Shown in pieces: positions 10,332 through 43,426 of a stretch of 64,000 nucleotides of DNA. Position 1 is the stretch's first letter; every line of letters starts with the position of its first letter. The DNA is from Streptomyces sp. TN58 (GTDB lineage: Bacteria; Actinomycetota; Actinomycetes; Streptomycetales; Streptomycetaceae). Where the stretch lies: NCBI RefSeq assembly GCF_001941845.1, contig NZ_CP018870.1, forward strand, positions 3,095,501-3,159,500. Reading direction: 5' to 3'. A program made the translations under genes and the position numbers. The notes under the pieces are model-generated. The model was not told the origin of the DNA. It did no database searches and saw nothing but the letters and a program-made list of their open reading frames with translations.

Positions 10332-10583
10332 TCAGGCCGCTGCCGCGTCCTGGATCAGGGCGACGACGGCGGCGACCGTGAGGTCCTTGGTCAGCGCTTC
10401 GAGGGGGACGTCGACGCCGAACTCGCGCTTGACGGACGCGGTGAGCTCGACGACGCCGAGCGAGTCGATCTCCAGCTCGTCCAGCCTGGCCTGGTCCGTG
10501 ATCGCGTCGGGCTCCGCCCCGAAGTCGACGAGTTCGCGCTCGACGAAGGCACGGACGGAAGCAAGATCGGCGGGCTGGGGCAC
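10332..10583 (-). CDS. Free-standing acyl carrier protein
   Basis: 83 aa, from a GTG preceded by GAGG. A longer frame reaches an ATG upstream, but those residues do not look like ACP. The protein reads like a type II ACP: an acidic four-helix protein with the phosphopantetheine serine in ELEIDSLGVVEL. It is convergent with the PKS block to its left and divergent from the acyltransferase operon to its right. It is a plausible partner for the KS/CLF pair or the AT-less KS, or a carrier in the isonitrile branch. Another ACP (15539-15934) sits closer to the FcoT gene and is the better ScoB counterpart. Confidence 0.9.
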   Translation of the reverse strand: MPQPADLASVRAFVERELVDFGAEPDAITDQARLDELEIDSLGVVELTASVKREFGVDVPLEALTKDLTVAAVVALIQDAAAA

Positions 10584-10771
10584 GACATCCTCGTCTCTGG
10601 ATCCTGAGCAGTGAAACGCGCAGCAGCCTAACAACAGGCGCACTACGCGCGGCTAAAGCGCTCCTTTCATCCGGCTGATCGCGGCACTAAACCCGTCTTG
10701 CCCGCCCCGGCGCTCGCTCCTATATTCCCGGTGAACGCTCGGCCGAGACGTTCAGAGATGGAGACCTGCAC
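10584..10771. promoter_or_regulatory. Divergent promoter region with palindrome
   Basis: 188 bp between the divergent ACP and acyltransferase genes, so it should hold both promoters. Part of it is AT-rich, with TATATT at 10721-10726, a possible -10-like element. An imperfect palindrome at 10733-10753 has GAACG/CGTTC outer arms around CTCGGCCGAG, and is a possible operator for a cluster regulator. Position and symmetry are the only evidence. Confidence 0.4.
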
Positions 10772-11482
10772 ATGCTCCGGATGCTGCTGAGGCGGCTCCT
10801 CCTCATTCCGCTTCGGCTCGTCCTGCGGCCCCGTGTCAGCGGTGTCGGGAACCTGCCGAGGTCCGGCCCCTTCATCGTCGCGGCGAACCACCTGTCCTTT
10901 TTCGACTCGATATTCATCGCGCTGTTGGTCCCGCGGCACCTGTATTTCGTGGGTAAGCAGGGCTGGCTTGAGATGCCCGGTCTGAAGGGGCGGCTGCAGG
11001 GCCTGTTCTTCCGTTCCGTCGGGATGATCTCCGTGGACGGCACGAGCGGCTCCGCGACCATGGCGGGGCTGGAGACCTCCCTGCGGATCATGCGCGAGGG
11101 CCACGGGGTGGGCGTGCACGTCGAGGGCACCCGGTCGCCCGACGGCCGCCTGTACAAGGGCAACACGGGCACGGCGTGGATCGCGATGCGGAGCGGGGCG
11201 CCGGTGGTCCCCTGCGGGCTGATCGGCACGGAGCGGGTGCACCCGGCCGGCGCCAGACGCCTCTACGTATCCCGCTTCGACGTCCGCTTCGGCACCCCCA
11301 TGACCTTCCCCGAGTACGCCGGACGGGAGGCCGACCGCAGCGCGCGCCGCGAGGTCACGAACCGGATCACCCGGGAGATATCCGCCCTGACCGGCCAGGA
11401 ATACGTGGACACCTATGCCGCGACCGTCAAGAGCCGGGCGGCTGCGGAATCCGCGGCCACGGCGGCGACAAGCACGGAATAA
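10772..11482 (+). CDS. PlsC-like 1-acylglycerol-phosphate acyltransferase family protein
   Basis: 236 aa; ATG with GGAGA upstream. The LPLAT/PlsC hallmarks are in order: block I NHLSFFDS (NHx4D, near residue 38), block II around FFRSVGMISVDG, block III EGTRSPDG (near 117), and block IV APVVPCGLIG. The N-terminus is basic and hydrophobic, as in membrane-associated acyltransferases. Family members move acyl groups from acyl-ACP or acyl-CoA to a hydroxyl acceptor, usually lysophosphatidate. As first gene of the operon with the isonitrile-type genes, it could modify the product, load or off-load an ACP, or remodel lipids for self-protection. The sequence does not say which. Confidence 0.85.
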   Translation: MLRMLLRRLLLIPLRLVLRPRVSGVGNLPRSGPFIVAANHLSFFDSIFIALLVPRHLYFVGKQGWLEMPGLKGRLQGLFFRSVGMISVDGTSGSATMAGLETSLRIMREGHGVGVHVEGTRSPDGRLYKGNTGTAWIAMRSGAPVVPCGLIGTERVHPAGARRLYVSRFDVRFGTPMTFPEYAGREADRSARREVTNRITREISALTGQEYVDTYAATVKSRAAAESAATAATSTE

Positions 11483-11547: not shown

Positions 11548-12438
11548 GTGAAGATTTCCCGCCAGGAAGACAAGAAGTTCGGCGTAACCGTCGAGGGATT
11601 CGATCTCAACACCGCCGCGGACGCGGATTTCGAGGAGATCAAGAACCGCGTCTACAGTGACAAGATCGTCGTGCTGCGCAACCAGCACCTGTCCTCCCCG
11701 GAATTCGCCGAGCTCGGCCGCCGCCTCGGCACCGTGGAGACGTACTACGAGCCCATGTACCAGCACCCTGAGGTCTCCGAGATCTTCGTGTCCTCGAACG
11801 TGGCGAGCGCGGACGGCACCCAGGTGGGCGTCCCGAAGACCGGCAAGTTCTGGCACGCGGACTACCAGTTCATGCCGAACCCCTTCGGTCTGACCCTCAT
11901 CTACCCGCAGGTCGTGCCCAAGAAGAACCGCGGCACCTTCTTCATCGACATGGGCCGCGCCTACGAGGGCCTGTCGGACGAGCTGAAGCACGCCGTCGAG
12001 GGCACCCGCGCGGTGCAGAACGTCAGCCGCTACTTCAAGATCCGCCCCGAGGACGTCTACCGCCCGGTCGGCGAGCTGGTCGACGAGATCCAGGCCAAGA
12101 CGCCCCCGTCGCCGCACCCGACCGCCTTCAAGCACCCCGCCACCGGCGAGACCGTCCTCTACATCAGCGAGGGCTTCACCACCGGCCTGCTGGACGCGGA
12201 CGGCAACGCGCTGGACAAGTCCCTGCTGACGGCCCTGCTGGAGTCCAGCGGCCAGCTCGACGACACCTTCGAGCACGAGAACATCCACCTGCAGACCTTC
12301 GAGCAGGGCGACCTGCTGGTCTGGGACAACCGCAGCCTCGTCCACCGGGCCCTGCACACCGCCACCCCGGAGCCGGCCGTCTCGCACCGCGTGACCGTGT
12401 ACGACCAGTACCCCTTCTACGAGGGCATCGGCGCCTGA
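11548..12438 (+). CDS. Fe(II)/2-oxoglutarate-dependent TauD-family oxidase, ScoE-like (isonitrile formation)
   Basis: 296 aa, GTG start with GAGAGAGG. A TauD/TfdA fold with iron ligands His103 and Asp105 (FWHADYQF) and His266 (SLVHRAL), and the 2-oxoglutarate-binding Arg281 (SHRVTV). Blocks such as [40 protein letters not shown] and [18 protein letters not shown] are, from memory, those of ScoE and Rv0097, not generic taurine dioxygenases. ScoE converts an N-carboxymethyl-3-amino fatty acid into a 3-isocyano fatty acid in two oxidations. Clustering with an FcoT-type thioesterase, an ACP and an acyl-AMP ligase supports the same role here. The family call is firm; the isonitrile product is inference. 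Confidence 0.88.
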
Positions 12439-12477
12439 CCCCCACCGTCTGCACCCACCCCGAACAACGAGGTAGTC

Positions 12478-13677
12478 ATGACCATCGGATGTCCCGTCAC
12501 CGGTCACAAGAACCCCTTCGACGAGGAGTTCTTCGCCGACCCCTACCCGGTGTACGCGCAGATGCACGAGGAAGCGCCCGTACACCGGGTGCGTCTCCCC
12601 GAGGGGACGCTCGTCTGGCTCGTCACCAAGTACGAGGAAGCCAGCGAGGCGCTCAAGGACCGCCGTCTGGTCCGCAACCGCCGCTACGCGGGCGAGGACT
12701 ACGAGAACGAGATCCTTCCGGAGATCGTGCGCTCCGGAAACCTCCACATGGAGGACGGCCCCCTGCACACCCGCCTGCGGCGGTTCATGAACTTCGCCTT
12801 CACCCCGAAGCGGATCGCGGCCATGGAGCCGCGCATCCACGAGGTCACCGCCGCCCTTCTCGACCGCATCGAGGCGGACGGCGGCGGCGACATCATGGAC
12901 CTGCTCGCCGCCCCGCTGCCCATCACGATGACCAGCGACATCCTCGGCGTCCCGGAGGACAGCCGGAGCAACTTCCGCGAGTGGAGCGACACCCTGCTCG
13001 GCGGTGAGCCGGTGGCCGCCAAGCAGGCCGCCGTCAGCCTGCTGGGCTTCGTCACGGAGCTCATCGCCGACAAGCGCAAGAACCTCACCGACGACCTCAT
13101 CTCGTACTGGATCACCGCCCAGGACAACGACGGCCAGCCGCTGACCGATCAGGAAATGATCGGCATGACGTTCTTCCTCCTGCTCGGCGGATACGACACC
13201 ACCGTCGGCCAGATCGGCGCGTCCACCCTCGCCCTGCTCAACAACCCGGACAAGGCCGCGCTGATGCGCGACAACCCGGCGATCATCCCGGACGCGGTCG
13301 AGGAGCTGATGCGCTGGGACGGCTCCACGCACAGCGGCATCCGCCGCTTCGCCGCCGAGGACATGAACATCGGCGGCGTGGACATCGCCAAGGGCGACTG
13401 CGTGCTCATCTCGCTCGGCGCGGCAAACCGCTGCCCGGTGCGCTTCGAGGACCCCGAGGTCATGGACTTCGGGCGCGAGGAGAACTGGCAGCTGGCCTTC
13501 GGCCGCGGCCCGCACCACTGCCCCGGCAAGGAGCTGGCCCGCAAGGAACTCCAGATCGCCCTCGGCGAGCTCGTGCGCCGCTTCCCGAACATGCGCCTCA
13601 CCAACCCCGAGGAAGAGGTCGTCTGGCGGCCCTCCTACATCATCCGGGTCCCCCAGTCCCTGCACATCACGGTCTGA
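12478..13677 (+). CDS. Cytochrome P450 (first of a tandem pair)
   Basis: 399 aa, a soluble bacterial class I P450 of normal length. I-helix motif LLLGGYDTT, the ExxR motif in VEELMRW, and the heme loop FGRGPHHCPG with ligand Cys348 are all present. It probably accepts electrons from a ferredoxin encoded elsewhere, since none is seen nearby. Its stop shares one base with the next start (TGATG), so the two P450s are likely co-translated. In this context it probably oxidises the acyl chain (hydroxylation, epoxidation or desaturation). The target position cannot be predicted. Confidence 0.94.
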   Translation: MTIGCPVTGHKNPFDEEFFADPYPVYAQMHEEAPVHRVRLPEGTLVWLVTKYEEASEALKDRRLVRNRRYAGEDYENEILPEIVRSGNLHMEDGPLHTRLRRFMNFAFTPKRIAAMEPRIHEVTAALLDRIEADGGGDIMDLLAAPLPITMTSDILGVPEDSRSNFREWSDTLLGGEPVAAKQAAVSLLGFVTELIADKRKNLTDDLISYWITAQDNDGQPLTDQEMIGMTFFLLLGGYDTTVGQIGASTLALLNNPDKAALMRDNPAIIPDAVEELMRWDGSTHSGIRRFAAEDMNIGGVDIAKGDCVLISLGAANRCPVRFEDPEVMDFGREENWQLAFGRGPHHCPGKELARKELQIALGELVRRFPNMRLTNPEEEVVWRPSYIIRVPQSLHITV

Positions 13678-14936
13678 TGCACAGCGAGGAGACGAAGTTG
13701 GAGCGCAGTCAGGACCTGGCGGAGGACACCGTGCAGGTCAGCGCCGCCCGGTGCCCCGTGGGGCCGCTCGGCACACCGTTCGACGCCCAGTTCTTCGCCG
13801 ACCCCTACGCCACCTACCGCCGGCTGCACACCGAGGGTCCGGTGCACCACATCAGGACACCGGACGGCGTGGAGGCCTGGCTGGTCACGCGCTTCGCCGA
13901 GGTCCGCCAGGGGCTGGGTGACCACCGGCTCGTACGCCACGTGCGGCACGCCAAGGACACCTACCACCGGTTCCCGCTGCCGGTGGAGTTCACCAAGTCG
14001 CTCGTACGGGAGGACCCGCCCGAGCACACCCGCCTGCGCCGCTTCATGAACATGGCGTTCGCGCCCAAGCGGGTCCGCCTGCTGCGGCCGCGGATCGTCG
14101 AGGTCGCCGAACGTCTCGTCGACGAGCTCGGCGAGCACGGCGAGACCGAACTGATGTCCTCGTACGCCGCCGCGCTCCCCATCGAGATCATCGCGGACAT
14201 GCTCGACATCGCCCAGGAGGACCGCACGAGCTTCCGGCGGTGGGCGGACGTGATCCTCGGCATCGACCCGGAGGAGATGCGCGAGGGCGGCGTCGGGATG
14301 CTGAAGGTCCTCACCGACCTGATCGAACGCAAGCGGGCCGAGCCGGGCGACGACATCTGGACCGAGTGGATCGAAGGCAAGGACGACCAAGGCGGAAGCC
14401 TCGACCAGCACGAGCTGATCGGCATGGGCTTCATGGTCCTGCTGGGGGGCTACGACCCCACCGCGGGTGTCATCGGCTGCGCCATCCACACGCTCCTGCA
14501 GGACCCCGCCCTCGCCGAGCGGCTGCGCAAGGAGCCGGAGCTCATGGCGGACGCCGTCGAGGAGTTCCTGCGGATGTTCGGGTCGAACCACACCGCTGCC
14601 AGGAGGTTCGCCGCCGAGGACGTCGAGCTCGGGGGCGTCACCATCCCCGCCGGCGACACCGTGCTGCTCTCCCTCGGCGCCGCCGACCGCGACGCCCTGC
14701 AGTTCGACGAGCCCGACACCTTCGACATGGCACGGCCCAACAACCGCCACGTCGCCTTCGGTTTCGGGCCGCACTACTGCCCCGGTACCGAACTCGCGCG
14801 CATCCAGATCGCGGTCGCACTCGAAGTGGTCCTGCGGCGCCTGCCGGATCTCAAGCTCACGATCCCGGCCGAGGACGTCCGGCTGCGGCCGGCCTACTTC
14901 ATCCGTTCACCCGTCGCACTGCCCGTCTCCTACTGA
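13677..14936 (+). CDS. Cytochrome P450 (second of a tandem pair)
   Basis: 419 aa, starting on the last base of the upstream P450 stop. I-helix VLLGGYDPTAG, ExxR in EEFLRMF, heme loop FGFGPHYCPG with ligand Cys368. It is clearly homologous to its neighbour over the whole length (RLRRFMN, RRFAAED and the C-terminal region match), which suggests local duplication followed by divergence. The I-helix Pro before Thr (DPT instead of DTT) is a visible difference. Likely a second oxidation on the same intermediate or product. Confidence 0.94.
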   Translation: MHSEETKLERSQDLAEDTVQVSAARCPVGPLGTPFDAQFFADPYATYRRLHTEGPVHHIRTPDGVEAWLVTRFAEVRQGLGDHRLVRHVRHAKDTYHRFPLPVEFTKSLVREDPPEHTRLRRFMNMAFAPKRVRLLRPRIVEVAERLVDELGEHGETELMSSYAAALPIEIIADMLDIAQEDRTSFRRWADVILGIDPEEMREGGVGMLKVLTDLIERKRAEPGDDIWTEWIEGKDDQGGSLDQHELIGMGFMVLLGGYDPTAGVIGCAIHTLLQDPALAERLRKEPELMADAVEEFLRMFGSNHTAARRFAAEDVELGGVTIPAGDTVLLSLGAADRDALQFDEPDTFDMARPNNRHVAFGFGPHYCPGTELARIQIAVALEVVLRRLPDLKLTIPAEDVRLRPAYFIRSPVALPVSY

Positions 14937-14957
14937 GTGCGGGCTCTGGAGAGACAC

Positions 14958-15542
14958 GTGACGCAGACAAGGACTCCACCGGCCGGGTCCCGCCCCGGCC
15001 GGCTCGGCACCGACACCGGCCTGCTGGCGCAGGTGCTGGTGCCCTACCGGGAGCACTGCCAGTACCTGAAGTCGTGCGAGGTGGCGGTAGGGGGCGACGG
15101 GCCGGCCGGGCTGGTCTCGGCCCGCTGCGAGTTCGAGATACCGGAGTCGTGCTACATCGACGACACCGGGCACTTCAACTCGGTGGAGTTCAACATCTGT
15201 TACAACCAGATGCTGTACTACGTCATCGCGAAGTCGGTGCAGGACGGACTCCTGGAGTCCTTCGCGCACTGGTCCATGGAGGACTACTGGCAGCGCCAGC
15301 TGGCCGACTTCCTCATCACCGACTTCCGCAGCACCTTCAAAAGGGCCATGCGCGGCCGCCACTTCTCCGGCGAGATCCAGATCCTGGACGTCGTGGAGTG
15401 GGAGGGCAGCGACATCCGCGAGCCGCTGCTCGTCGTCCACACCGCCTGCCGGTACTGGGACGCGAGCGGCGGCAACTGCCACGGCGAAGTGAAGATCGCC
15501 ATCACCCACCCGACGACTGCGACGACTGGGGTGCAGCCATGA
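14958..15542 (+). CDS. FcoT/ScoD-like hot-dog thioesterase
   Basis: 194 aa from the GTG at 14958, which has GGAGAG at the right distance. Another in-frame GTG at 14937 directly abuts the P450 stop. The protein resembles FcoT (Rv0098), a single hot-dog fold; the helix region NSVEFNICYNQMLYYVIA and the Tyr/Asn-rich active-site area are typical. In isonitrile lipopeptide pathways the homologue ScoD adds glycine to the beta carbon of an alpha,beta-unsaturated acyl-ACP and then releases the amino acid, giving the substrate of the ScoE oxidase. Both partners are in this operon. The stop overlaps the ACP start as ATGA, as expected for an enzyme acting on that ACP. Confidence 0.87.
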   Translation: MTQTRTPPAGSRPGRLGTDTGLLAQVLVPYREHCQYLKSCEVAVGGDGPAGLVSARCEFEIPESCYIDDTGHFNSVEFNICYNQMLYYVIAKSVQDGLLESFAHWSMEDYWQRQLADFLITDFRSTFKRAMRGRHFSGEIQILDVVEWEGSDIREPLLVVHTACRYWDASGGNCHGEVKIAITHPTTATTGVQP

Positions 15543-15934
15543 CCATCGACCCCCGTGCGGCCGACCGCTTCCGGCGGCTTCCCCGGTCGGAGTGGCGGAC
15601 GGAGCTGGAGGCCGTCGTGGTCCGGGAGTTCCGTACGGCCCTGCTGATGACGGGGGCCGAAACCGTTCCGCTCGACCAGAACTACTTCGACCTGGGCCTG
15701 ACCTCACTGCGCGCCACCGAGATCAAGCAGCGGCTGGAGGCCGGTCTCGGCGTCACCATCGACACGTCCGTGCTCTTCGGCAGCCCGACGGTCGACCGGC
15801 TCCTGGACCACCTGCTCACGCAGCCCCTGGACGGCAGGCCCGCGCCCGACCCGGCGGCACCCGCCGGGCCGGGCGCACCCGACCTGCGCAAGTCCCTGGT
15901 CGACGACCTGCTGAGCGACCTCTACCAGGCCTGA
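15539..15934 (+). CDS. Acyl carrier protein with C-terminal docking tail (ScoB-like)
   Basis: 131 aa, coupled to the FcoT gene (ATGA at 15539-15542). The carrier domain (about 15-95) carries the phosphopantetheine serine in LGLTSLRATEIKQRLE. A Pro/Ala linker follows, then the short helix LRKSLVDDLLSDLYQA, typical of C-terminal docking elements on modular PKS proteins. The following PKS starts with a charged coiled helix, so a hand-over from this ACP to that PKS is plausible. It is the likely carrier for FcoT-catalysed glycine addition or for loading by the acyl-AMP ligase. Confidence 0.88.
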   Translation: MTIDPRAADRFRRLPRSEWRTELEAVVVREFRTALLMTGAETVPLDQNYFDLGLTSLRATEIKQRLEAGLGVTIDTSVLFGSPTVDRLLDHLLTQPLDGRPAPDPAAPAGPGAPDLRKSLVDDLLSDLYQA

Positions 15935-15986
15935 CCACGTCTCTCCGGCAGGGCCCCGCGGCCCTGCCGGATCTGGAGGAAAGACC

Positions 15987-18900
15987 GTGCCCAACACGCC
16001 CGCGCGTGAGCAGGATGAGCTGGAGGCGTCCCGTGAGGCACTCCGGCAGCACAAGCAGCTCCTCAAGGAGCTGATGCTGGAGAAGTACGAGCCCATCGCC
16101 ATCGTCGGCGCCGGAATCCGCTTCCCGGGCGGCAACGACACCCCCGAGGGCTTCACCGAGTTCCTGCGCGCCGGCGGTGTCGGGACCGGCCCCATCCCCG
16201 AATCCCGCTGGAACGTCGCGGAGTTCGCGTCCGGCGGCGAGAACGCCAAGGGCCGGATCCTGCCGCACAGCGGCGGCTTCCTCGACGGCATCGACCGGTT
16301 CGACCCCCGCTTCTTCAACATCTCCCCCAAGGAGGCCCAGTACATCGACCCGCAGCAGCGGCTCGTACTGGAGACCGCCTGGGAGGCGCTGGAACACGCG
16401 AACATCGACCCGACCGCCCTGCGCGGCGGCAACGGCGGCGTCTACGTCGGCATCAGCTGCGTCGACTACACCATCGAGATCGACGACCTCGCCTACGACG
16501 AGCTGGACGCCAACGTGGGCACCGGTACGGCCCACAGCGTCGCGGCCGGCCGCATCTCCTACTTCCTCGGCATGCGCGGCCCGAGCATGGCCATCGACAC
16601 CGCCTGCTCCTCCTCGCTGGTCGCCCTGCACCTCGCGGTCGAGGGGCTGCGGCGCGGCGAGTGCGAGATCGCGCTGTGCGGCGGCGTCAACGCCATCCAC
16701 CACCCGCGCAACCACATCGTCTTCTCCCAGGCGGGCATGCTCTCGCCCGACGGGATGTGCAAGACCTTCGACGACTCGGCCGACGGCTACAGCCGCGCCG
16801 AGGGCTGCGGCATGGTCGTCCTCAAGCGGCTGTCGGACGCACTGCGCGACGGCGACCGGGTGGTCGCCCTGGTCCGCGGCACGGCCGTGCGCCAGGACGG
16901 CGAGAGCGGCGGCCTGACCGTCCCCAACGGCTCCGCGCAGGAGCAGGTGATGCGGGCCGCGCTGGCCGCGGCGATGCTGGAGCCCGGCGACGTCTCCTAC
17001 GTGGAGGCGCACGGCACCGGGACCTCGCTCGGCGACCCCATCGAGATGGGCGCCATCAGCGGGGTCTTCTCCCGGTCCCACACCGCGGACACGCCGCTCG
17101 TCGTCGGCTCGCTCAAGAGCAACATCGGCCACATGGAGGCGGCCGCCGGCATCGGCGGTGTCGTCAAGGCCGCGCTCCAGCTGCAGAACGGCGAGATCTA
17201 CCCGCACCTGCACGTGGACAAGCCCTCCTCGCACATCCCGTGGGCGGACATGCCCGTCGAGGTGCCGAACGAGGGCCGCGCCTGGACCGCGCCGGTCCGC
17301 CGCGCACTGATCAACTCCTTCGGCTTCCAGGGCACCATCGCCTCCGCCGTGCTGGAGCAGCCGCCCGCACCCGCCGGCGGCGCGCAGCCCGACCAGGAGC
17401 AGCAGCCGGAAGCCGCGGGGCACGTCTTCACCCTCTCCGCCAAGGGCGAGAAGGCCCTGGCCCTCCAGACCCGGAACTACCGGGCCTTCCTCGCCGAGAA
17501 CCCGGACGCCGACCTCGCCGACCTCTGCTACACCGGCAACGTCGGCCGCGCCCACTTCGGGACCCGCCTGACGGGTGTCGTCCGCGACCGCGCCGAGCTG
17601 GAGGCGCTCCTGGACAAGGTGCCCGCGGCCGCCTCCGACCTGCGCAGGGTCGCGCTGCTCTTCACCGGGCAGGGCTCCCAGTACCCGGGGATGGGCCGAT
17701 CCCTGTACGAGGCGTACCCGGTGTTCCGGGAGCACCTGGACACCTGCGACCGGCTGTTCGCGCAGGGCCTCGGCCGGTCGGTGAAGGACCTCGTCCTGGG
17801 CACCGCCGAGGACGCCGAGGTGATCCACGAGACCCGCTTCACCCAGCCGGCGCTGTTCGCCTTGGAGTACGCCACCGCGAAGCTCTGGCTGAGCTGGGGC
17901 ATCGAACCGAGCGTCCTGATCGGCCACAGCATCGGCGAGGTCGTCGCCGCCGCGATCGGCGGGCTGTTCTCGCTGGAGGACGCCGTACGCCTGGTCACGG
18001 CCCGCGCCCGGTTGATGCAGTCGGTGACCGCGCCCGGCGGCATGGTCGCCGTGACGGCGGCCGCCGAGGAGGTGGCGCCGCTGCTGGAGTCCTACGCGGA
18101 CGTGTCCTTCGCCGCGTTCAACGCCCCCGGCCAGTGCGTCGTCTCGGGCGGCACCGCCTCCCTCGCCGAGATCACCGCCGTGCTCGCCGGCCGCGGGGTG
18201 AAGACGAAGGCGCTGCCGGTCTCGCACGCCTTCCACTCGCCGCTGATGCACGAGGTGTTCGACGCGTTCCGCGAGGTCGTCGCCACGATCGACTTCCGGG
18301 TGCCCGAGCTGACCCTGGTCTCCAACCTGACCGGCCGGGTCGCCGACCCGGCCGAGCTGGCCACCCCCGAGTACTGGGTGCGCCACATCGGCGAGCCGGT
18401 CGACTTCAGCGCGGGCATGGCCACGATCGGCGCCCGCGGCCGCCACGTCTTCATCGAGGTCGGGCCCGCCGCGACGCTGCTCGGGCTGGGCCGGCGCATC
18501 CTCGACGCCCGCGACCACGTGTGGGTGGCGAGCACCGGCACCCAGGACAGCGCCGGCGCCACGGCCCGCAAGGCGCTCACCGACGTCTACGCCGCGGGCC
18601 TGCACGTCGACTGGGCCGGCTACCACGCGGGCCGCCCGCGCCGCCGCGTCCCGCTGCCGCGCACGGTCTTCGACCGCAAGCGCTACTGGCTCCCGATCAA
18701 CGGCGTCCGGCACTCCAAGGAACTGGTGGCCGACGCCTCGCGCGTCCACCACCCGCTGCTGGGCGAGGAGATCACCGACCCCGCGGGCCGGGAGCGGGGC
18801 GTGCGCGAGTTCGCCGCGACCATCGCCCCCGACCGTCCGGCACAGCTCGCCGACCACGTGGTCATGGGCCAGGTGGTGTTCCCCGGAGCGGGCTACGTCG

Positions 18901-21900
18901 AGATCCTGCTGGCGCTCCAGGACGCCGTGTACGGCGAGACGGGCCGGCCGCTGGAGGGCGTGCACATCCTCGAACCGCTGATCCTCACCGAGGACCAGCC
19001 CACCGAGGTCCGCACCCGCCTGACGCCGCTGCCGGACGGCGGCGCCGAGGTGGAGATCGTCAGCCGGGTCGACGGCTCCGGCCGGGCCATCGAGCGGCGG
19101 CACGCCGTCGCCCGGATAGCCGCCGGCTGGACCCTCCTGCCCGAGCTGGAGCGGGCGGCGGCGGAACTGACCGCACGGGCCGCCGCCGACACCGGCGCGA
19201 CGTCCCCGGCCCCGCGCCGCGCGGACGACCTGTACGCCGACTTCGCCGACCTCGGCCTGGAGTACGGCCCTGAGTTCCGGCGCATCGAGCTGCTGTCCCG
19301 CGAGGGCGACGGCGTGGCCGTCGCGCAGCTCCTCGGCCGCCCGGCCGGCGCGGTGGAGCACATGCCGCCGTCCGTCCTCGACAACGTCATCCAGTCCCTC
19401 GCGGCCGTCCTCGACAACGGCCACACCTACCTCCCGGTCGCCTTCGGCACCTTCCAGCTGCTGAAGAAGCCCAAGCAGGGCGCCCTGCGCAGCCTGGCGC
19501 GGATCACCGGCGAGGAGAGCGCCGACGGCGAACTCACCGCCGACCTGCTGCTGCTGGAGGGCGACCGGCCGCTGTTCGTCGTACGCGACCTGGGCTTCAA
19601 GCGGGTCGCCAACACCGCCGGCGGGCCCCGCCGCAGGTTCTTCCACACCCCGCGCTGGACCAAGCGCTCGCTGGTGCGGCGCGCCGCGGAGGGCGCCGCC
19701 CGCCGGATCCTGGTGGTCGGCCGGGACGGGGACGCCCTCGCGGGGGCGGTGCCCGAGCTGACGGCGGCCGACGCCGCCCTGGCGTTCGCCCCGGACGCCG
19801 CGTCGGCGGCCCGCGCCGCCGAGTCCCTGTCCGGCCGGCCCACCGATGTGGCCTGGTTCTGGCGTGACCGGCCGGGCCCGGTCACCGAGGAGCGGCTGCG
19901 CGCCGAGTCCGAGGCCAACTACCGGGACCTGCTGGCGCTGCTGGCCTCGCTGGAGCAGCAGGGCTTCGGCCGCGAACAGCGGCTGTGGCTGGTCACCGAG
20001 GGCGCCCAGCGGCTGCCGGGCGACGTGCCCGCCCCGGGTGCCGGCGCCGTGCCGGCCTCCTCCCTGTGGGGCTTCGGCCTGTCCCTGTGGAGTGAGTACC
20101 CGACGTACAAGGTCACCCTCGTCGACCTGCCGGACGGCGGCGACGCCCGGTCGCTGGCCGACGAGTGGCTGGCCGCGGAGGCCGAGGAGTTCCAGATCGG
20201 CTACCGGGCGGGCAACCGCCACGTGCGCCGGCTGCGCCCGGTGGAGCCGGCCGCCGCGGACGACGGCAACTTCGAGCTCACGGTGACGGAGTACGGCGAG
20301 TTCGCCCACATCAAGCCGGTGCCGCTGGCCGACACCGCCCCCCAGGGCGACGAGGTGCAGGTCCAGGTGCACGCCGCGGGCCTCAACTTCAAGGACGTCC
20401 TCAACGCCCTCGGCCTGCTCAAGCAGCACGCCGAGGACACCGGGGTGCCCTACCAGCCTCTGCCCCTCGGTTTCGAGGGCTCCGGCACGGTCCTCGCGGC
20501 CGGACCGGACGCCGAGTTCGCGCCGGGCGACGAGGTCGTCCTCAGCCACCTCGGGTGCATGAAGCGCCGGGTGACGGTGCCGTCGGCCATGGCGGTGCGC
20601 AAGCCCGCCAACATCGGCTTCGCCGAGGCGGCCGGTCTGGCCACCGCGTACGTGACCGCGTACTACGCCCTGCACGACCTGGCCGGCATCAAGGCCGGCG
20701 ACAAGGTGCTGGTGCACGCCGCCGCGGGCGGGGTGGGGCAGGCCGCGGTGCAGCTGGCGCAGCTCGCCGGGGCGGAGGTCATCGCCACGGCCAGCCCGCG
20801 CAAGCAGGCCCTGCTGCACGCCCAGGGCGTCGAGCACGTCCTGAACTCCCGCTCCCCGCAGTTCGCCGACCGGATCCTGGAGATCACCGGCGGCGCGGGC
20901 GTCGACATCGTCCTCAACAGCCTGAACAAGGAGTACATCGCCGAGGGCATGCGGGCGCTGGGCCGCGGCGGGCGCTTCGTGGAGCTCGGCAAGATCGGCA
21001 TCTGGTCCGCGGAGCAGGCCCGCGAGGCGCGTCCGGACGTGGCCTACCACAACTTCGACCTCAGCGAGTTCCCCGAGGACGAGCTGCGCTCGGTGAACAA
21101 GCAGATCCTGGAGACCGTCGCCGGCCTGCTGGAGCGCGAGGAGATCCGGCCGATCCCGACGACCTCGTACTCCCTGGAGGAGATCGAGGAGGCGTTCGGG
21201 GTCCTCAGCCGGGGTGCGAACATCGGCAAGCTCGTCCTCGACCTGACCGCGTCGGGCGACCGGCCGGCCCGGCCGGTGGAGATCGCCGCCGACCGCACCT
21301 ACCTGATCACGGGCGGTCTGGGCGCCATCGGCACCGTCACCGCCGAACGCCTTGTCGCCCTGGGCGCCCGGCACATCGCGCTGGTCAGCCGCCGCGCCGT
21401 GTCCGCCGAGCGGACCGCGGCCATCGCGGCCGGCCTCGGCGAGGGCGTCTCGGTGACCGCCTACCAGGGCGACATCGCCCGCGCCGAGGACGTGCGGCGC
21501 ATCGCCGAGGACCTGAAGGCGACCGGCCGGCCGCTCGCGGGCGTCTTCCACGGCGCGGGCGTCCTGGCCGACATGCCGGTCTCGGCGATGGACTGGGAGA
21601 GCATCGAGAAGGTCTTCGAGGCCAAGGTGTTCGGCACCTGGCAGCTCGACCAGGTCCTGCGGACCTTCCCCGAGGAGCCGTTCCTGGTGGGCTACTCCTC
21701 GGTGGCCTCGGTGCTGGGGCCGGTGGCGCAGGGCAACTACGCGGCCGGCAACGCCTTCGTCGACGCGGTGATGCGGTGGCGCTCCGCGGCCGGCCTGCCG
21801 GGGCTCAGCATCGGCTGGGGGCCGTGGGCCGAGGTCGGCATGGCCGCGAACCTCAGCGCCGACCTGATCCGCGGCATCGAGGGCCAGGGCATGCGGTTCC

Positions 21901-22445
21901 TGAAGCCGACGGACGGCGCACGGTGCCTGTTCAAGGCGCTGGGCGGCAGCGAGTCGCACGTCACCGTCGGTGAGTTCGACTGGGACCGGTACGCGTCCGG
22001 GCGCCCGGCGGTCAGCGCGCTCTACCGCGAGGTGGCGCGGGCGTCGGCCGCGGCGGTGCGCAAGGTCGACCTGGAGGCGCTGCGGGCCCTGCCCCGGGCC
22101 GAGCGCCGGGCCACCGTCAACGAGCTGATCCGGGAGCGGATCGCCGTGCTCCTCCACTTCGAGGGCGCGGACGACGTCCCCGCGGACGCGAAGTTCACCG
22201 AGCTGGGACTGGACTCCCTGGTGGCCGTCGAGCTGAAGAACGCCCTGGAGGCGGGCTTCCAGGTGCCGCTGCCGACGTCGATCGTGTTCGACTACCCGTC
22301 GATCCTGCTGCTGGCCGAGTACCTGGACCAGGAGATCGCCCCGCCGGCCGCCGACGAGGCGTCCGCGGGCCGGGCGCCGAAGGACGTCCGGGAGCTGTCC
22401 GAGGCGGACGCCGACGCCGAACTCGCCGACCTGATGGACCTGTGA
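15987..22445 (+). CDS. Type I PKS, single module KS-AT-DH-ER-KR-ACP (malonyl-type AT)
   Basis: 2152 aa, GTG start with GGAGGAAA. An N-terminal docking helix (about 5-33, rich in Glu/Leu/Lys) precedes the KS (Cys207 in TACSSS; HGTGTSLGDP near 341; NIGHMEAA near 381). The AT has GHSIGE (near 646) and HAFH (near 747), the malonyl-CoA pattern. DH has HVVMGQVVFP (near 955) and DNVIQ (near 1131). ER has LNFKDV (near 1467) and HAAAGGVG. KR has TGGLGAIG (near 1773) with Ser/Tyr/Asn in YSSVAS and GNYAAGNA. The ACP Ser is near 2076, and an acidic tail ends in ELADLMDL. The KS ends SFGFQGTIASAV where modular KSs have SGTNAHV. Full reduction of malonyl units would extend a saturated alkyl chain, perhaps iteratively. 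Confidence 0.93.
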   Translation: MPNTPAREQDELEASREALRQHKQLLKELMLEKYEPIAIVGAGIRFPGGNDTPEGFTEFLRAGGVGTGPIPESRWNVAEFASGGENAKGRILPHSGGFLDGIDRFDPRFFNISPKEAQYIDPQQRLVLETAWEALEHANIDPTALRGGNGGVYVGISCVDYTIEIDDLAYDELDANVGTGTAHSVAAGRISYFLGMRGPSMAIDTACSSSLVALHLAVEGLRRGECEIALCGGVNAIHHPRNHIVFSQAGMLSPDGMCKTFDDSADGYSRAEGCGMVVLKRLSDALRDGDRVVALVRGTAVRQDGESGGLTVPNGSAQEQVMRAALAAAMLEPGDVSYVEAHGTGTSLGDPIEMGAISGVFSRSHTADTPLVVGSLKSNIGHMEAAAGIGGVVKAALQLQNGEIYPHLHVDKPSSHIPWADMPVEVPNEGRAWTAPVRRALINSFGFQGTIASAVLEQPPAPAGGAQPDQEQQPEAAGHVFTLSAKGEKALALQTRNYRAFLAENPDADLADLCYTGNVGRAHFGTRLTGVVRDRAELEALLDKVPAAASDLRRVALLFTGQGSQYPGMGRSLYEAYPVFREHLDTCDRLFAQGLGRSVKDLVLGTAEDAEVIHETRFTQPALFALEYATAKLWLSWGIEPSVLIGHSIGEVVAAAIGGLFSLEDAVRLVTARARLMQSVTAPGGMVAVTAAAEEVAPLLESYADVSFAAFNAPGQCVVSGGTASLAEITAVLAGRGVKTKALPVSHAFHSPLMHEVFDAFREVVATIDFRVPELTLVSNLTGRVADPAELATPEYWVRHIGEPVDFSAGMATIGARGRHVFIEVGPAATLLGLGRRILDARDHVWVASTGTQDSAGATARKALTDVYAAGLHVDWAGYHAGRPRRRVPLPRTVFDRKRYWLPINGVRHSKELVADASRVHHPLLGEEITDPAGRERGVREFAATIAPDRPAQLADHVVMGQVVFPGAGYVEILLALQDAVYGETGRPLEGVHILEPLILTEDQPTEVRTRLTPLPDGGAEVEIVSRVDGSGRAIERRHAVARIAAGWTLLPELERAAAELTARAAADTGATSPAPRRADDLYADFADLGLEYGPEFRRIELLSREGDGVAVAQLLGRPAGAVEHMPPSVLDNVIQSLAAVLDNGHTYLPVAFGTFQLLKKPKQGALRSLARITGEESADGELTADLLLLEGDRPLFVVRDLGFKRVANTAGGPRRRFFHTPRWTKRSLVRRAAEGAARRILVVGRDGDALAGAVPELTAADAALAFAPDAASAARAAESLSGRPTDVAWFWRDRPGPVTEERLRAESEANYRDLLALLASLEQQGFGREQRLWLVTEGAQRLPGDVPAPGAGAVPASSLWGFGLSLWSEYPTYKVTLVDLPDGGDARSLADEWLAAEAEEFQIGYRAGNRHVRRLRPVEPAAADDGNFELTVTEYGEFAHIKPVPLADTAPQGDEVQVQVHAAGLNFKDVLNALGLLKQHAEDTGVPYQPLPLGFEGSGTVLAAGPDAEFAPGDEVVLSHLGCMKRRVTVPSAMAVRKPANIGFAEAAGLATAYVTAYYALHDLAGIKAGDKVLVHAAAGGVGQAAVQLAQLAGAEVIATASPRKQALLHAQGVEHVLNSRSPQFADRILEITGGAGVDIVLNSLNKEYIAEGMRALGRGGRFVELGKIGIWSAEQAREARPDVAYHNFDLSEFPEDELRSVNKQILETVAGLLEREEIRPIPTTSYSLEEIEEAFGVLSRGANIGKLVLDLTASGDRPARPVEIAADRTYLITGGLGAIGTVTAERLVALGARHIALVSRRAVSAERTAAIAAGLGEGVSVTAYQGDIARAEDVRRIAEDLKATGRPLAGVFHGAGVLADMPVSAMDWESIEKVFEAKVFGTWQLDQVLRTFPEEPFLVGYSSVASVLGPVAQGNYAAGNAFVDAVMRWRSAAGLPGLSIGWGPWAEVGMAANLSADLIRGIEGQGMRFLKPTDGARCLFKALGGSESHVTVGEFDWDRYASGRPAVSALYREVARASAAAVRKVDLEALRALPRAERRATVNELIRERIAVLLHFEGADDVPADAKFTELGLDSLVAVELKNALEAGFQVPLPTSIVFDYPSILLLAEYLDQEIAPPAADEASAGRAPKDVRELSEADADAELADLMDL

Positions 22446-22449
22446 CGCG

Positions 22450-23901
22450 GTGAGGGAGTACATCGAGTCCCTGTCGGGGCTCTCCCACAAGCAGCTGGTC
22501 CTGATGCTGGCACGGCAGCGGCTGCGCGAGAGCGAGGGCATCGCCGTCACCGGCCTCGCCTGCCGCCTGCCGGGCGGCCTGGACAGCCCCCGGCAGTACT
22601 GGGAGGCGCTGCGGGACGGCCGTGTGGTGGCCGGCGGCGGCGGGATACCCGTCGACTCCGCCGGCCGCCCCCGGTGGAACGTGGCCGCGCCCGACCTGGC
22701 ACCCCTGGCCGAACTGCTCGGCCAGGGCTCCTACCTGGCGGACATCGACGTCTTCGACGCCGAGCGGTTCGGCATCGGCGAGGAGGAGGCGGCCTTCATG
22801 GACCCGCAGCAGCGGCTGCTGCTGACCGTGGCGGCCGAAGCACTGCAGGACGCGGGGGCGGCGCCCGGCACCGACGCCCGGGTCGGGGTGTTCGCCGGGG
22901 TGAGCACCGTCGAGTACAACTACGCCTGCCTGCGCAACGGGGTCGGACCCGAGGGCCTGTCCCCGTACATGGGCACCGGCGGCGCGCTGAGCGCCGCCGC
23001 CGCCCGCGTCGCCACCGGGCTGCGCCTGGGCGGCCCGGTGCTCACCGTCGACACGGCCTGCTCCTCGGCGCTGACCGCGCTGCACCTGGCCTCGCACGCG
23101 CTGCGCGCCCGCGAGTGCGACCTCGCCGTCGTGGGCGCCTGCCACCTGCTGCTGGCGCCGTTCACGACGGCGGTGTTCGCCCAGGCCGGCATGGTCTCGC
23201 CGACGGGCCGCAGCCGGCCCTTCGACGCGGCGGCCGACGGGCACGTGCGGGGCGAGGGCTGCGGGGTGCTCGTCCTGAAACGGCAGTCCGACGCCAAGGC
23301 GGACGGGGACACCCCGTACGCCGTGGTCCGCGGCAGCGGCATCCACCAGCACGGCGACCGGCCCGCGATGGCCGCGGCGTCCGCGCTGGGCCAGCGCCGG
23401 GTCATCGCGGACACGCTGCGCTCCGCCGGGATCGACCCGCACGAGGTGGGCTACGTCGAGGCGCAGGCCAACGGCTCCAAGCTGGGCGGGGTCATCGAGG
23501 CGGAAACCCTCGCCGGCGTCTACGGCCGGGACTCCGCGGACGCCCCCGAACTGCTCGTCGGCTCCGCCAAGGGCACCCTCGGCTACCTGGAGACGGCGTC
23601 CGGCGCGGCCGGCCTGATCAAGGCCGTGCTGGCGGTGAACCACCGCACGGTCCCGGTGCAGCCCGGCTTCGACGTGCCGGACCCGGCGATCCCGTGGCGG
23701 CGCATGGCGCTGCGGGTGCCGACGGCCTCGCAGCCGTGGCCGGAGGGGCCGCGGCGGCTGGCCGGGGTGAGTGCGTTCGGCTTCACCGGAACCAACGCGC
23801 ACGTCCTGATGGAGGGCGTGGACGGGCCCCCGCGGCAGCCGCCCGGGCCGGCGCCCGTACGCGGCCGCCGGTACTGGCCCGAGGGCAACCAGTGGACTTG
23901 A
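22450..23901 (+). CDS. Ketosynthase-only protein lacking both catalytic histidines
   Basis: 483 aa, GTG start 4 nt after the upstream PKS stop. An N-terminal docking-like segment (EYIESLSGLSHKQLVLML) is followed by one KS domain. The nucleophile is kept (Cys204 in DTACSSA), but the HGTGT block reads EAQANGSKLGG (His to Gln at 339) and the NIGH block reads GTLGYLET (His to Tyr at 379). The fold blocks MDPQQRLLLTV and FTGTNAHVLM are intact. Without these histidines decarboxylative condensation is not expected. It may pass on or hold an acyl chain by transacylation, like non-elongating KS0 domains. A short tail with RGRRYWPEG resembles the end of a post-AT linker, so an AT may have been lost here too. 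Confidence 0.9.
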   Translation: MREYIESLSGLSHKQLVLMLARQRLRESEGIAVTGLACRLPGGLDSPRQYWEALRDGRVVAGGGGIPVDSAGRPRWNVAAPDLAPLAELLGQGSYLADIDVFDAERFGIGEEEAAFMDPQQRLLLTVAAEALQDAGAAPGTDARVGVFAGVSTVEYNYACLRNGVGPEGLSPYMGTGGALSAAAARVATGLRLGGPVLTVDTACSSALTALHLASHALRARECDLAVVGACHLLLAPFTTAVFAQAGMVSPTGRSRPFDAAADGHVRGEGCGVLVLKRQSDAKADGDTPYAVVRGSGIHQHGDRPAMAAASALGQRRVIADTLRSAGIDPHEVGYVEAQANGSKLGGVIEAETLAGVYGRDSADAPELLVGSAKGTLGYLETASGAAGLIKAVLAVNHRTVPVQPGFDVPDPAIPWRRMALRVPTASQPWPEGPRRLAGVSAFGFTGTNAHVLMEGVDGPPRQPPGPAPVRGRRYWPEGNQWT

Positions 23902-23918
23902 GGAGCGAGGAGCCGGAC

Positions 23919-25490
23919 ATGTACCACCCGCAGTTGCAGACCCTGGACCGTACGGCGGCCTTCCACGCCGCCGAGCGCCCCGACCGGACGGCCGTGGTCT
24001 GCGAGGGCCGCGAGGTCGGCTACGGGGAGCTGCACCGGCGCAGCAACCGGACGGCCCGCGCGCTGCACGCGGCCGGGGCGGTGCGCGGCTCCCGGGTGGC
24101 GTACCTGGGCAAGGAGTCGGAGCACTACTACGACATCCTCTTCGGCTGTGCGAAGGCCGGCACGGTCCTCGTGCCCATCAACTGGCGGCTGACGGCCTCC
24201 GAGGTGGACCACATCCTGCGGGACTCGGGGACGGCGCTGCTCTTCGTCGAGGACGAGTTCCTGGACGTCGCGCACAAGGCGGCCGCCGAACTGCCCTCGC
24301 CGGTGCTGGTCGTCCCGCTCGACGGGCCGGACGGGCCCGGCAGCGCCTTCACCGCCTGGCAGGCGGGGCACTCGGACGCCGACCCGGAGACGTCCGCCTC
24401 CCCCGACGACCCGATCGCCCAGATCTACACGAGCGGCACCACGGGCCTGCCCAAGGGCGTGGTGCTCGCGCACCGCAGCTTCTTCAAGGTGCGCGACGCC
24501 CTCGCGTCCGAGGGACTGCGGTGGATCGACTGGCGTGAGGACGACGTCAGCCTCATCGGCATCCCCGGCTTCCACATCGGCGGCCTCTGGTGGGCGACGC
24601 AGGGCTTCAACGCGGGGGTCACCAATGTCGCCATGCGGATGTTCGTCAGCGGCGAGGCGGTGCGGCTGATCCGCGAGCACGGGGTGAGCACCACCTGCCT
24701 GGTCCCGGCGATGCTCCAGATGATGCTGGCCGAACCGGGCGCCGTCAGCGCCGACTTCGAGACCCTCCGCAAGGTCGTCTACGGCGGTTCGCCCATCTCC
24801 GAGAGCCTGCTCCAGGAGTGCCTGGAGCGGATCGGCTGCGAGTTCGCGCAGATCTACGGGCTCACCGAGACCGGGAACACCGCGGTCTGCCTGCCGCCGC
24901 ACGAGCACGTGCCCGGCGGGGCCCGGCTGAAGGCCGCGGGGCGGCCCTATCCGGGCTTCGAGGCCAAGATCGTCGACCGGGCGGGCCGGGAGCTGCCCAC
25001 GGGCGCGATCGGGGAGGTGTGCCTGCGCACGCCGTCGCGGATGCTGTCGTACTGGGGGCTGCCCGAGGCCACCGCGGACACCCTCGTGGACGGCTGGATC
25101 CACACCGGGGACGCCGGCTATCTCGACGCCGGCGGCTACGTGTTCATCTGCGACCGGATCAAGGACACGGTCATCGTGGCCGGGGAGAACGTGTATCCGG
25201 CCGAGATCGAGAACGCGCTCGCCCGGCACGAGGCAGTGGTGGAGGCTGCGGTCGTGGGTGTCCCGGACGAGCGCTGGGGCGAGGCCATCCACGCGTTCGT
25301 CGTGGTCAGGCCCGGTCACGAGGTCACTCCGCGGCAGCTGGTGCTCTCCCTCAAGGGCACGATCGCCGACTTCAAGATTCCGTCCGGTTTCGAGTTCATC
25401 GAGACCCTGCCGCGCAACCCGAGTGGAAAGATCCTCCGGCGGGAACTGCGCGACCGCTTCTGGAAAGACCGGGAGCGTCAGGTCAACTGA
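23919..25490 (+). CDS. Acyl-AMP ligase (FadD10/ScoC-like, ANL superfamily)
   Basis: 523 aa, ATG with GGAGCGAGGA upstream. An adenylate-forming enzyme: P-loop YTSGTTGLPKG (near 169), A5-type YGLTETGN, the hinge region around TGDAGYLD and CDRIKDTVIVAGENVYP, and catalytic lysine in NPSGKILRREL (near 502). Such enzymes activate a carboxylate as acyl-AMP and transfer it to an ACP or CoA. In isonitrile pathways the counterpart (ScoC, FadD10) loads a fatty acid on the ACP. Here it could load the starter or reload the free isonitrile acid after FcoT release, so that the PKSs can extend it. Substrate not predictable from the visible motifs. Confidence 0.9.
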   Translation: MYHPQLQTLDRTAAFHAAERPDRTAVVCEGREVGYGELHRRSNRTARALHAAGAVRGSRVAYLGKESEHYYDILFGCAKAGTVLVPINWRLTASEVDHILRDSGTALLFVEDEFLDVAHKAAAELPSPVLVVPLDGPDGPGSAFTAWQAGHSDADPETSASPDDPIAQIYTSGTTGLPKGVVLAHRSFFKVRDALASEGLRWIDWREDDVSLIGIPGFHIGGLWWATQGFNAGVTNVAMRMFVSGEAVRLIREHGVSTTCLVPAMLQMMLAEPGAVSADFETLRKVVYGGSPISESLLQECLERIGCEFAQIYGLTETGNTAVCLPPHEHVPGGARLKAAGRPYPGFEAKIVDRAGRELPTGAIGEVCLRTPSRMLSYWGLPEATADTLVDGWIHTGDAGYLDAGGYVFICDRIKDTVIVAGENVYPAEIENALARHEAVVEAAVVGVPDERWGEAIHAFVVVRPGHEVTPRQLVLSLKGTIADFKIPSGFEFIETLPRNPSGKILRRELRDRFWKDRERQVN

Positions 25491-25563: not shown

Positions 25564-26403
25564 ATGGCTTCCCTCAGCACCATACGCAACGTCGTCAACG
25601 CCGTGTCGTACGTCTCCGTCAAGGCGGCCGGAGCCCCGGCCTGGAAGCTGTTCCTCGGCGCACCGCCGCGCACCCCGGTCCGGCCCGAGCAGCGGGAGGT
25701 CCACGACCGCGCCGAGCAGGAGACCCTCAACGTCGGCGGGCGTGACATCCGCACCTACCGCTGGGGCAGCGGTGAGAAGCCCGTCCTGCTGGTGCACGGC
25801 GTCAGCGGGCGGGCGGCGAACTTCGCCGGCTTCGTCGCGGGCATCGAAGCCCTCGGTCTGACCGCCGTCGCCTACGACGCCCCCGGCCACGGCTCGTCGG
25901 GCGGTTCGACCTGCACCATCCTGGAGCACGGCGCCGTCATGACGGCGATGCAGGAGCGGTACGGCGACTTCCACGCGGTCGTCGGGCACTCCTTCGGCGG
26001 CACCTCCGCCTACCTGGCGGCCCGCCGCGGCCTGGCCACCGAGCGGATCGTCTCCATCTCCTCCGTGGCGGACTTCGGCTCGCTCCCGGACACCTTCTGC
26101 GGCCAGCTCGGGCTGCGGCCCGCCCTCGTCGGCGAACTGCGCCGGCGCTCCGAGCTGTTCTTCGAGCCCGAGCGGGACATCTGGAACCGCTTCTCCGCCG
26201 ACCACCGCCCGGAGGAGATCACGGCGCGGATCCTCGTCGTCCACGACGAGAACGACCGCGAGGTCGGCGTCGACCAGGGCCGACGGCTCGCCGCGAGCTA
26301 CGGCGACCGGGCGGAGCTGATGATCACGAGCAAGCTCGGGCACCGCCGGATCCTGGGCGACCCCGAGGTCATCGGCAGGGTCCTGGACTTCCTCAAGGAC
26401 TGA
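25564..26403 (+). CDS. Alpha/beta hydrolase
   Basis: 279 aa; ATG at 25564 chosen because the residues upstream in the open frame do not look coding. It has the oxyanion strand LLVHGVSG, nucleophile elbow GHSFGG, an acid in HDENDRE and a C-terminal His in LGHRRI, a complete Ser-Asp-His set. No signal peptide is evident. The N-terminal about 50 residues are helical and precede the core. It lies between the ligase and the bimodular PKS. Release of a finished chain or hydrolysis of a tailoring intermediate is possible; none of the PKSs here carries a thioesterase domain. Confidence 0.87.
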
Positions 26404-26495
26404 ACCGGCGGCGGGCGGCACACGCGGCGGGCCGGCACAAGCGGCGGGCCGGCGGGCGGAATCGACGAGCGCGGACGATGGGACGGAAGAGAGCG

Positions 26496-36703: not shown

Positions 36704-36784
36704 CAGTGATTCTCCTCGTTCCGTGGACCCTGACCCGGATCCGGATTGCCCAACGGTCACCCTATGCAGCGGGCCGACCGCACC

Positions 36785-43064: not shown

Positions 43065-43426
43065 GTGCGTCCTCCCTGCGGTGCCGGGGGACACCGCCAC
43101 GGGCGTGCGCCCGTGCCCCGCTGAAACAACTATCAGAAACCGGACGGTAACGAACGGTCAGTGGATCAGTTCCCGGTCGGGAACCCGGACGAGGCACCGC
43201 CCCCGGTCCACCGGCCCCGTACCTGCCCGTATGCGCGTACGAGCCGTTCGAACGGTCCCGGGGCCGGACCCGCTCCACCGCCGCGAAGGCGCGCCGGCCC
43301 TTCCCCGGCGCGGGGCCGGCGCCGCGATCACCGACCCGACCCGCTCCCACGGCAATCCGGGCGACCGCCACCAGCACGATCCGCTAGGCTGTCAGCGGTC
43401 ACACGGCGGTTCTCGCCGAGGCCCCC
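43065..43426. other. Intergenic region between helicase and tRNA
   Basis: 362 bp without a supportable gene. It contains the promoter side of the helicase gene and upstream DNA of the tRNA. A short TTCGAA-centred symmetric stretch (GCCGTTCGAACGG, about 43240-43255) is visible. I did not find the GGGGCTTGC-type rifamycin-associated element that would support HelR-like regulation. Confidence 0.35.

Follow-up and report, generated by a model that had tools for sequence, protein, structure and literature searches.

The locus

We analysed a 64,000-nucleotide stretch of the complete 7.585 Mb genome of Streptomyces sp. TN58 (C1:3095501-3159500, referred to as the window) and inspected a flank of 39.9 kb on each side, giving 143.8 kb in total. 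The subject of this work is a run of genes at positions 11548-34904 of the window that carries a predicted isonitrile gene set (module B) and adjoins a phosphonate gene set (module A; Table 1). The order of the run is oxidase, cytochrome P450a, P450b, FcoT-type thioesterase, acyl carrier protein (ACP), fully reducing polyketide synthase (PKS), stand-alone ketosynthase (KS), ligase, alpha/beta hydrolase and a PKS that starts with a KSQ domain. A FabH-like gene and a SARP gene come next on the opposite strand and are counted as part of module B. From the oxidase to the ligase all genes lie on the plus strand and are separated by at most 52 bp or overlap, and the whole plus-strand run is probably a single operon. 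A previous sequence-only reading had placed the oxidase, the thioesterase, the ACP and an acyl-AMP ligase in one putative operon, in agreement with the strand and the spacing seen here. It named this gene content correctly but overlooked the two P450 genes between oxidase and thioesterase. The ACP is not read in the frame of the open reading frame (ORF) given at 15592. Domains were assigned by a Pfam run on the cluster proteins, which left some ORFs of the window aside.

A ScoE-type oxidase without an NRPS

The oxidase scored 498 bits against the NCBIfam ScoE equivalog NF049937 (cut-off 400) and matched the ScoE structure 6dch with an E-value of 2.2e-129, compared with 4.2e-25 for TauD. As the sequence-only reading had stated, H103, D105, H266 and R281 are conserved, with the Fe ligands numbered as in ScoE. 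All 13 ScoE active-site positions placed by alignment (Fe ligands and the residues for CABA and alpha-ketoglutarate) are identical in the window oxidase, the roles of these residues being those given in the consulted passages of PMC7949033. In a tree of 98 rows, built with a quick method and without a TauD outgroup, the oxidase fell among ScoE-type loci and outside both branches linked to nonribosomal peptide synthetases (NRPS), on weakly supported forks (82-84 for the inner forks around the window; the long branches of L066 and L069 are unsure). Family score and structural match identify the enzyme as ScoE rather than as a TauD dioxygenase.

The thioesterase exceeded the FcoT cut-off of Pfam by far (207.8 vs 27). 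Its best matches in the PDB were 5wsy (3.2e-55) and 5wsx, both presumably SAV606. For enzymes of the CmiS1/SAV606 type, roles in isonitrile pathways and 2-enoyl thioesters as the substrates of glycine addition are described in the consulted parts of PMC11284099. Compared with 18 loci that are mostly of the NRPS type (L036, L038-L054), the window ligase shares 57-68% identity with the closest ligase of each. The combination TauD-FcoT-ACP-reducing PKS recurs with a ligase nearby in Streptomyces, Mangrovihabitans and Pseudofrankia, with P450s in between in many loci, and the same combination is present in Micromonospora up to where its locus ends.

We searched the 143.8 kb with a hidden Markov model (HMM) from 76 aligned condensation-domain sequences, some of them from the same genomes, and found no condensation domain at E<=1; adenylation (A) and peptidyl carrier protein (PCP) domains were not searched separately. 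The claim that the window lacks A, C and PCP domains is therefore borne out for its C-domain part, and no condensation domain lies within the 39.9 kb left of the window either. Of 138 relatives from a scan of named genomes for ScoE-type loci, we retained the best 80 and classed them by the genes within 10 kb: 58 are NRPS-linked, 19 PKS-linked and three unclear. None of these 80 comes from Amycolatopsis or Chromobacterium. The NRPS-free ScoE set is real, yet it is part of a sizeable class with amycomicin and aerocyanidin as described members. The notion that such a set is unusual in itself does not hold, given the 19 PKS-linked loci among these best 80 and the published amycomicin/aerocyanidin pathway (Zheng, Clardy and Liu 2024, as cited in the consulted part of PMC13273461).

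Variation within this class was seen in two further places. Four loci (L170, L178, L183, L187) form a distinct ScoE and FcoT group with modular PKSs alongside, and in the tree this group is nested close to the larger of the NRPS branches. Another subtype is found in S. fumigatiscleroticus (L130, L220-L222), which has an oxidase (69%), FcoT, a ligase, FabH (70%) and a modular PKS and lacks a reducing PKS.

Table 1. Features of the two modules. Positions are those of the window; negative numbers lie left of it.
Feature	Position	Strand	Basis or remark
Module B
ScoE-type non-heme iron oxidase/decarboxylase (isonitrile former)	11548..12438	+	NF049937, PDB 6dch, active-site residues
Cytochrome P450a	12478..13677	+	PF00067; heme motif HHCPG, I-helix GYDTT
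Cytochrome P450b	13677..14936	+	PF00067; I-helix GYDPT, Pro in place of Thr
FcoT/ScoD/CmiS1-type thioesterase (glycine addition to 2-enoyl thioester)	14937..15542	+	PF10862 8.5e-62
Stand-alone ACP	15539..15934	+	PF00550 7.8e-13
Fully reducing PKS, KS-AT-DH-ER-KR-ACP	15987..22445	+	Pfam, motifs; AT motif HAFH
Stand-alone KS, Cys kept, both His lost (QANGS, GY)	22450..23901	+	Motif alignment
Acyl-AMP ligase (ScoC role)	23898..25490	+	PF00501 1.8e-83
Alpha/beta hydrolase, likely release thioesterase	25564..26403	+	PF00561/PF12697; start inferred, ORF opens at 25258
PKS, KSQ-AT(YASH)-ACP loading module and KS-AT(HAFH)-DH-KR-ACP extension module	26478..34904	+	Pfam, motifs
Module B, opposite strand, up to the likely right edge
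Beta-ketoacyl-ACP synthase III (FabH-like)	35765..36760	-	NF006829 2.1e-113
SARP-type regulator (BTAD and winged helix)	36785..37615	-	PF03704 3.7e-37
Module A
FAD/NAD-binding protein	-14851 to -12659	-	
2-Aminoethylphosphonate (AEP) aminotransferase	-12596 to -11481	-	TIGR03301
Phosphonopyruvate decarboxylase-like TPP enzyme	-11484 to -10363	-	
Phosphoenolpyruvate (PEP) mutase	-10363 to -8768	-	TIGR02320, motif, PDB 5unc
Phosphopantetheinyl transferase	-8625 to -7960	-	
MFS exporter, then fatty-acid-hydroxylase-like protein	left of window, after phosphopantetheinyl transferase	-	
Hydrolase, two KS/CLF-like pairs, SDR, FabG, second reducing PKS, KS, PlsC (members inside the window detailed below)	after minus-strand block	+	
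KS partner of CLF	1..932, begins about 295 bases left of window	+	PF02801 2.1e-37 on in-window part
CLF-like protein, no recognisable KS Cys motif	929..2113	+	PF00109 9.4e-23
Fully reducing PKS, KS-AT-DH-ER-KR-ACP	2235..8480	+	Pfam
Stand-alone KS, Cys and both His kept	8483..10231	+	PF00109 3.8e-78
ACP	10332..10643	-	PF00550 6.7e-11; conserved in G781 and G234
PlsC-type acyltransferase	10772..11482	+	PF01553 1.6e-20; 65 bp before oxidase

Polyketide synthases and the proposed pathway

The two PKSs of module B differ in build. The AT motif HAFH is of the malonyl type, and the reducing PKS is 51-58% identical to the PKSs of seven more distant isonitrile loci. A KSQ domain decarboxylates the loaded unit, and YASH would mark an AT for methylmalonyl. 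In the second PKS, Gln replaces Cys in the first KS (DTGQSSS). The first module matched 32 rows, and the ten close ones (two from the same genome; G1007 was left out) were compared: all ten, from nine genomes, keep the Gln. Ordinary KSs with Cys make up 21 of the 32 rows (42-47% identity). Since this PKS begins with a KSQ loading module, it probably loads propionyl and would make a short 2-enoyl thioester for FcoT.

The stand-alone KS between reducing PKS and ligase has QANGS instead of HGTGT and GY instead of GH. Its first His is gone in eight of nine homologs and the second in all nine. Because both catalytic His are lost, this KS should not condense, and its role is probably limited to passing the acyl chain on. 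Clusters with such a His-less KS define a subtype with ten members: the window, S. virginiae NRRL ISP-5094 (G781, locus L127), strain NRRL F-2664, S. capoamus, G383, G875, M. pattaloongensis, Mangrovihabitans, G837 and G855. The sequence-only reading had counted two fully reducing PKSs, a bimodular PKS and a KS/CLF pair, and had called the KS inventory unusual. This needs correction in that the 'bimodular' PKS consists of a KSQ loading module and one extension module, and that there are two KS/CLF-like pairs, one of them left of the window. The unusual inventory is made up of the KSQ module, the His-less KS and the KS/CLF pairs, the last of which belong to the phosphonate module, a second module outside the view of that reading.

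Taken together, we consider it likely, if well short of certain, that the genes at 11548-34904 encode an amycomicin-type pathway to a long-chain isonitrile acid. Gene content, motifs, gene order, family membership of the oxidase and the lack of a detected condensation domain were read from the sequence, and from these we infer the operon, the order of steps, the chain length and the P450 products. The KSQ module would decarboxylate a loaded (methyl)malonyl unit and the extension module, which has KR and DH and no ER, would add one malonyl unit to give the short 2-enoyl thioester, 2-pentenoyl if YASH means methylmalonyl. FcoT would add glycine to the beta carbon and release an N-carboxymethyl-beta-amino acid, whose N-carboxymethyl group the ScoE-type oxidase would convert to the isonitrile. 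The ligase may then load the beta-isocyano acid onto the ACP, and the reducing PKS may lengthen the beta-isocyanoacyl chain by malonyl units, with the His-less KS probably serving in hand-over only. The alpha/beta hydrolase would release the acid, and the two P450s would oxidise the isonitrile end. The sequence-only reading had likewise expected the isonitrile to sit on a reduced polyketide or fatty acid and no NRPS to take part, and the gene content supports this.

Two observations weigh against this pathway. The thioesterase missed the ScoD equivalog NF049938 (228.3 bits vs cut-off 250), and the KSQ PKS was not found in the inspected stretches of G383, G837, G855 and S. buecherae, despite the same reducing PKS. 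With no KSQ PKS in what was read of these four loci, this source of the enoyl thioester is not shared by all such clusters, and the reducing PKS itself could be the producer. The reducing PKS might thus build a long enoyl chain first, with FcoT and the oxidase acting on that chain and the KSQ PKS serving another purpose, and its gene does follow FcoT-ACP immediately in all ten His-less-KS clusters. However, the reducing PKS has an ER, so that an enoyl product would require ER skipping, and the KSQ PKS, in which no ER is seen, lies next in the same gene run. We regard elongation before glycine addition as unlikely and prefer enoyl supply by the KSQ PKS.

P450s and the relation to known pathways

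In the interval between oxidase and FcoT, two P450s are found in the window and a single one in S. virginiae and NRRL F-2664, which is 49-54% identical to either. Between 15009 and about 37900, the window and these two strains share 90-93% of their DNA sequence, and the S. virginiae ISP-5094 cluster shares 87-97% protein identity with the window in all genes except the P450s. The oxidised end of the product probably differs between the window strain and S. virginiae or NRRL F-2664. Of all P450s compared, only that of S. capoamus shares the GYDPT motif of P450b, and the PDB neighbours of the window P450s were generic only. In S. capoamus, P450a (L035 8371-9602) is broken into two pieces in different frames.

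The resemblance of the logic to amycomicin/aerocyanidin, which the sequence-only reading had pointed out, is supported by shared gene roles. Window and known pathways have in common a glycine-adding thioesterase, a non-heme iron isonitrile former, ligase and ACP, elongation by PKS, P450s and no NRPS. Amycomicin-type gene content (ScoE, FcoT, ACP, ligase, PKS and P450 without NRPS), as defined in part by the consulted passages of PMC13273461, is present in the window. In the same passages the reported target of amycomicin is FabH, and the window cluster has a FabH-like gene. The accounts of amycomicin in these passages mention no phosphonate genes.

We wondered whether the cluster makes amycomicin itself and hence nothing new. 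Using a protein search and a PKS network, PMC13273461 (consulted in part) reports amycomicin BGC0001504 for two groups of S. virginiae, 1 and 2. ISP-5094 has a single ScoE-type gene, which lies inside this cluster (the only other match reaches just 26%). Since this sole gene sits in a near-identical cluster, PMC13273461 most likely means this cluster family; its consulted passages give no assignment of ISP-5094 to either group. However, the search criterion there was tblastn with E below 1e-5, and the mass assignment is tentative and termed preliminary by its authors. The P450 slot is unlike as well, with two genes in the window, one different gene in S. virginiae and three P450s cited for amycomicin in the same source. 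We consider identity with amycomicin doubtful.

Isonitrile lipopeptide clusters of the scoA-E type have ScoE, FcoT and ligase homologs in common with the window; they carry an NRPS (ScoA), whereas the window has PKSs and P450s and no condensation domain was found there. In the cremimycin starter set (CmiS1/CmiS2), too, a short PKS that has no thioesterase domain feeds an FcoT-type thioesterase (PMC11284099, consulted in part). That the FcoT gene serves a macrolactam starter of this beta-amino acid type, as its proximity to 5wsy/5wsx (presumably a CmiS1 homolog) might suggest, is very improbable, given a ScoE oxidase in the same run that would make an isonitrile and no amino acid oxidase of the CmiS2 role among the cluster proteins that were run against Pfam.

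FabH and the likely right edge of the cluster

The SARP gene at 36785-37615 is likely the right edge of the cluster, and the next 18 called genes rightward (38101-65211) found no match in the stretches of all four relatives. Eight of the ten His-less-KS clusters have a FabH-like gene within them or next to them, the other seven copies being 58-97% identical to that of the window. Elsewhere in its genome the cluster FabH has a stand-alone counterpart with 70% identity (C1:6239046). We rejected this counterpart as the housekeeping enzyme because another FabH (C1:2332916, 43%) sits in a run that by eye resembles FabD-FabH-ACP-FabF; the nearest relative of the cluster copy in the genome is thus a second FabH that stands alone. 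The cluster FabH may be a resistance gene or a priming enzyme. We dropped the idea of demonstrated self-resistance because the distinguishing residues recur in another Mangrovihabitans FabH and because more distant KAS III genes (33-38%) are common in NRPS-type named loci (51 of 58).

Several observations concern related genes or the surroundings. In G952 (L226, C1:5426375-5427319) a FabH 81% identical to that of the window lies in a phosphonate-only cluster, beside a SARP that groups with SARPs of isonitrile clusters; this pair is perhaps the remnant of a lost isonitrile module. A second SARP-like gene (window-relative 93942-94658, L005; 36% to the cluster SARP) lies far to the right. Just right of the cluster, 39576-43100 on the minus strand encodes a UvrD-like helicase of 1174 amino acids without a match in the stretches of the four relatives. 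Outside the cluster, a large toxin-like RHS-repeat protein (60230-64000, continuing to 64774) carries a type VII secretion system-type signal (PF21725, PF05593).

The phosphonate module

2-Aminoethylphosphonate is made by the sequence PEP mutase, phosphonopyruvate decarboxylase and AEP aminotransferase, and all three enzymes are predicted to be encoded consecutively left of the window. The PEP mutase scored 311.9 bits against TIGR02320 (cut-off 319.55), which is still its best family. It carries EDKRFPKVNSF at 123, in keeping with the PEP mutase motif EDKxxxKxNS, and matched the PEP mutase structure 5unc (8.8e-145). The aminotransferase reached 360.0 bits against TIGR03301 (cut-off 360.8). Unlike in the plain 2-aminoethylphosphonate pathway, KS/CLF pairs and genes for fatty-acid-hydroxylase-like and PlsC proteins are attached, and the PEP mutase is extended at its C-terminus by about 240 residues. 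In two members examined this extension had no Pfam match; by eye it may resemble half a nucleotidyltransferase. PlsC, the gene next to the oxidase, was found in all five loci that have the phosphonate module alone and belongs to this module. In G1041 (L123-L126) the genes of the phosphonate module are mostly split over frames, probably through assembly error because this genome is 55% complete.

Are the two modules linked?

The phosphonate module, with PEP mutase, phosphonopyruvate decarboxylase, AEP aminotransferase, exporter and KS/CLF pairs, lies directly left of module B and would form one supercluster with it. A phosphonate core adjoins six of the ten His-less-KS clusters, in four layouts and two families. 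Outside the lineage of the window it is adjacent in three of seven clusters (S. capoamus, G383 and Mangrovihabitans), against a background of 6/390 Streptomyces genomes (binomial 1.2e-4; the seven were found by oxidase or P450 searches, two come from another family, and kinship is uncorrected). The SARP at the cluster edge groups with SARPs of phosphonate-only clusters and not with that of G875 (branch support 0.87). Among 392 Streptomyces genomes, three had both modules, three the isonitrile set only and five the phosphonate core only, a co-occurrence with p=1e-4 by Fisher test with the window and 0.0027 without S. virginiae; isonitrile clusters entered this count only through hits of the P450 search, and the window is the genome that started the search. 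These data suggest that modules A and B are functionally linked.

Other results speak against a link. The phosphonate core is absent from G875 (best match 29%), from M. pattaloongensis and from the inspected stretches of G837, which has a 47% PEP mutase elsewhere in its genome, and G855. Conversely, the core occurs in five genomes, G1041 among them, in which no ScoE-type match reached E<=1e-60. Without both the window and S. virginiae, the co-occurrence is no longer significant (p=0.06). Each module thus occurs alone, and the two might be unrelated and merely touching; set against the adjacency in several layouts, the excess over background outside the lineage and the grouping of the SARPs, we find this not very likely. 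That the modules make a co-regulated pair of products stands at about even. A single hybrid, in which the isonitrile acyl chain would sit on a 2-aminoethylphosphonate head (for example via the PlsC-type acyltransferase), with one SARP and one MFS pump, appears improbable.

Literature searches, in sources consulted partly as excerpts, turned up no natural product that combines isonitrile and phosphonate. The isonitrile half is known in kind, with variant parts; the adjoining phosphonate module looks new and was nowhere found in print. ScoE-type sets with PKS and without NRPS represent a widespread class with internal subtypes. The near-identical clusters of S. virginiae and NRRL F-2664 have other P450s than the window and so offer a ready test system. 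If the modules cooperate, the product would be the first isonitrile phosphonate, or two co-regulated compounds would mount a paired attack, possibly on lipid synthesis.

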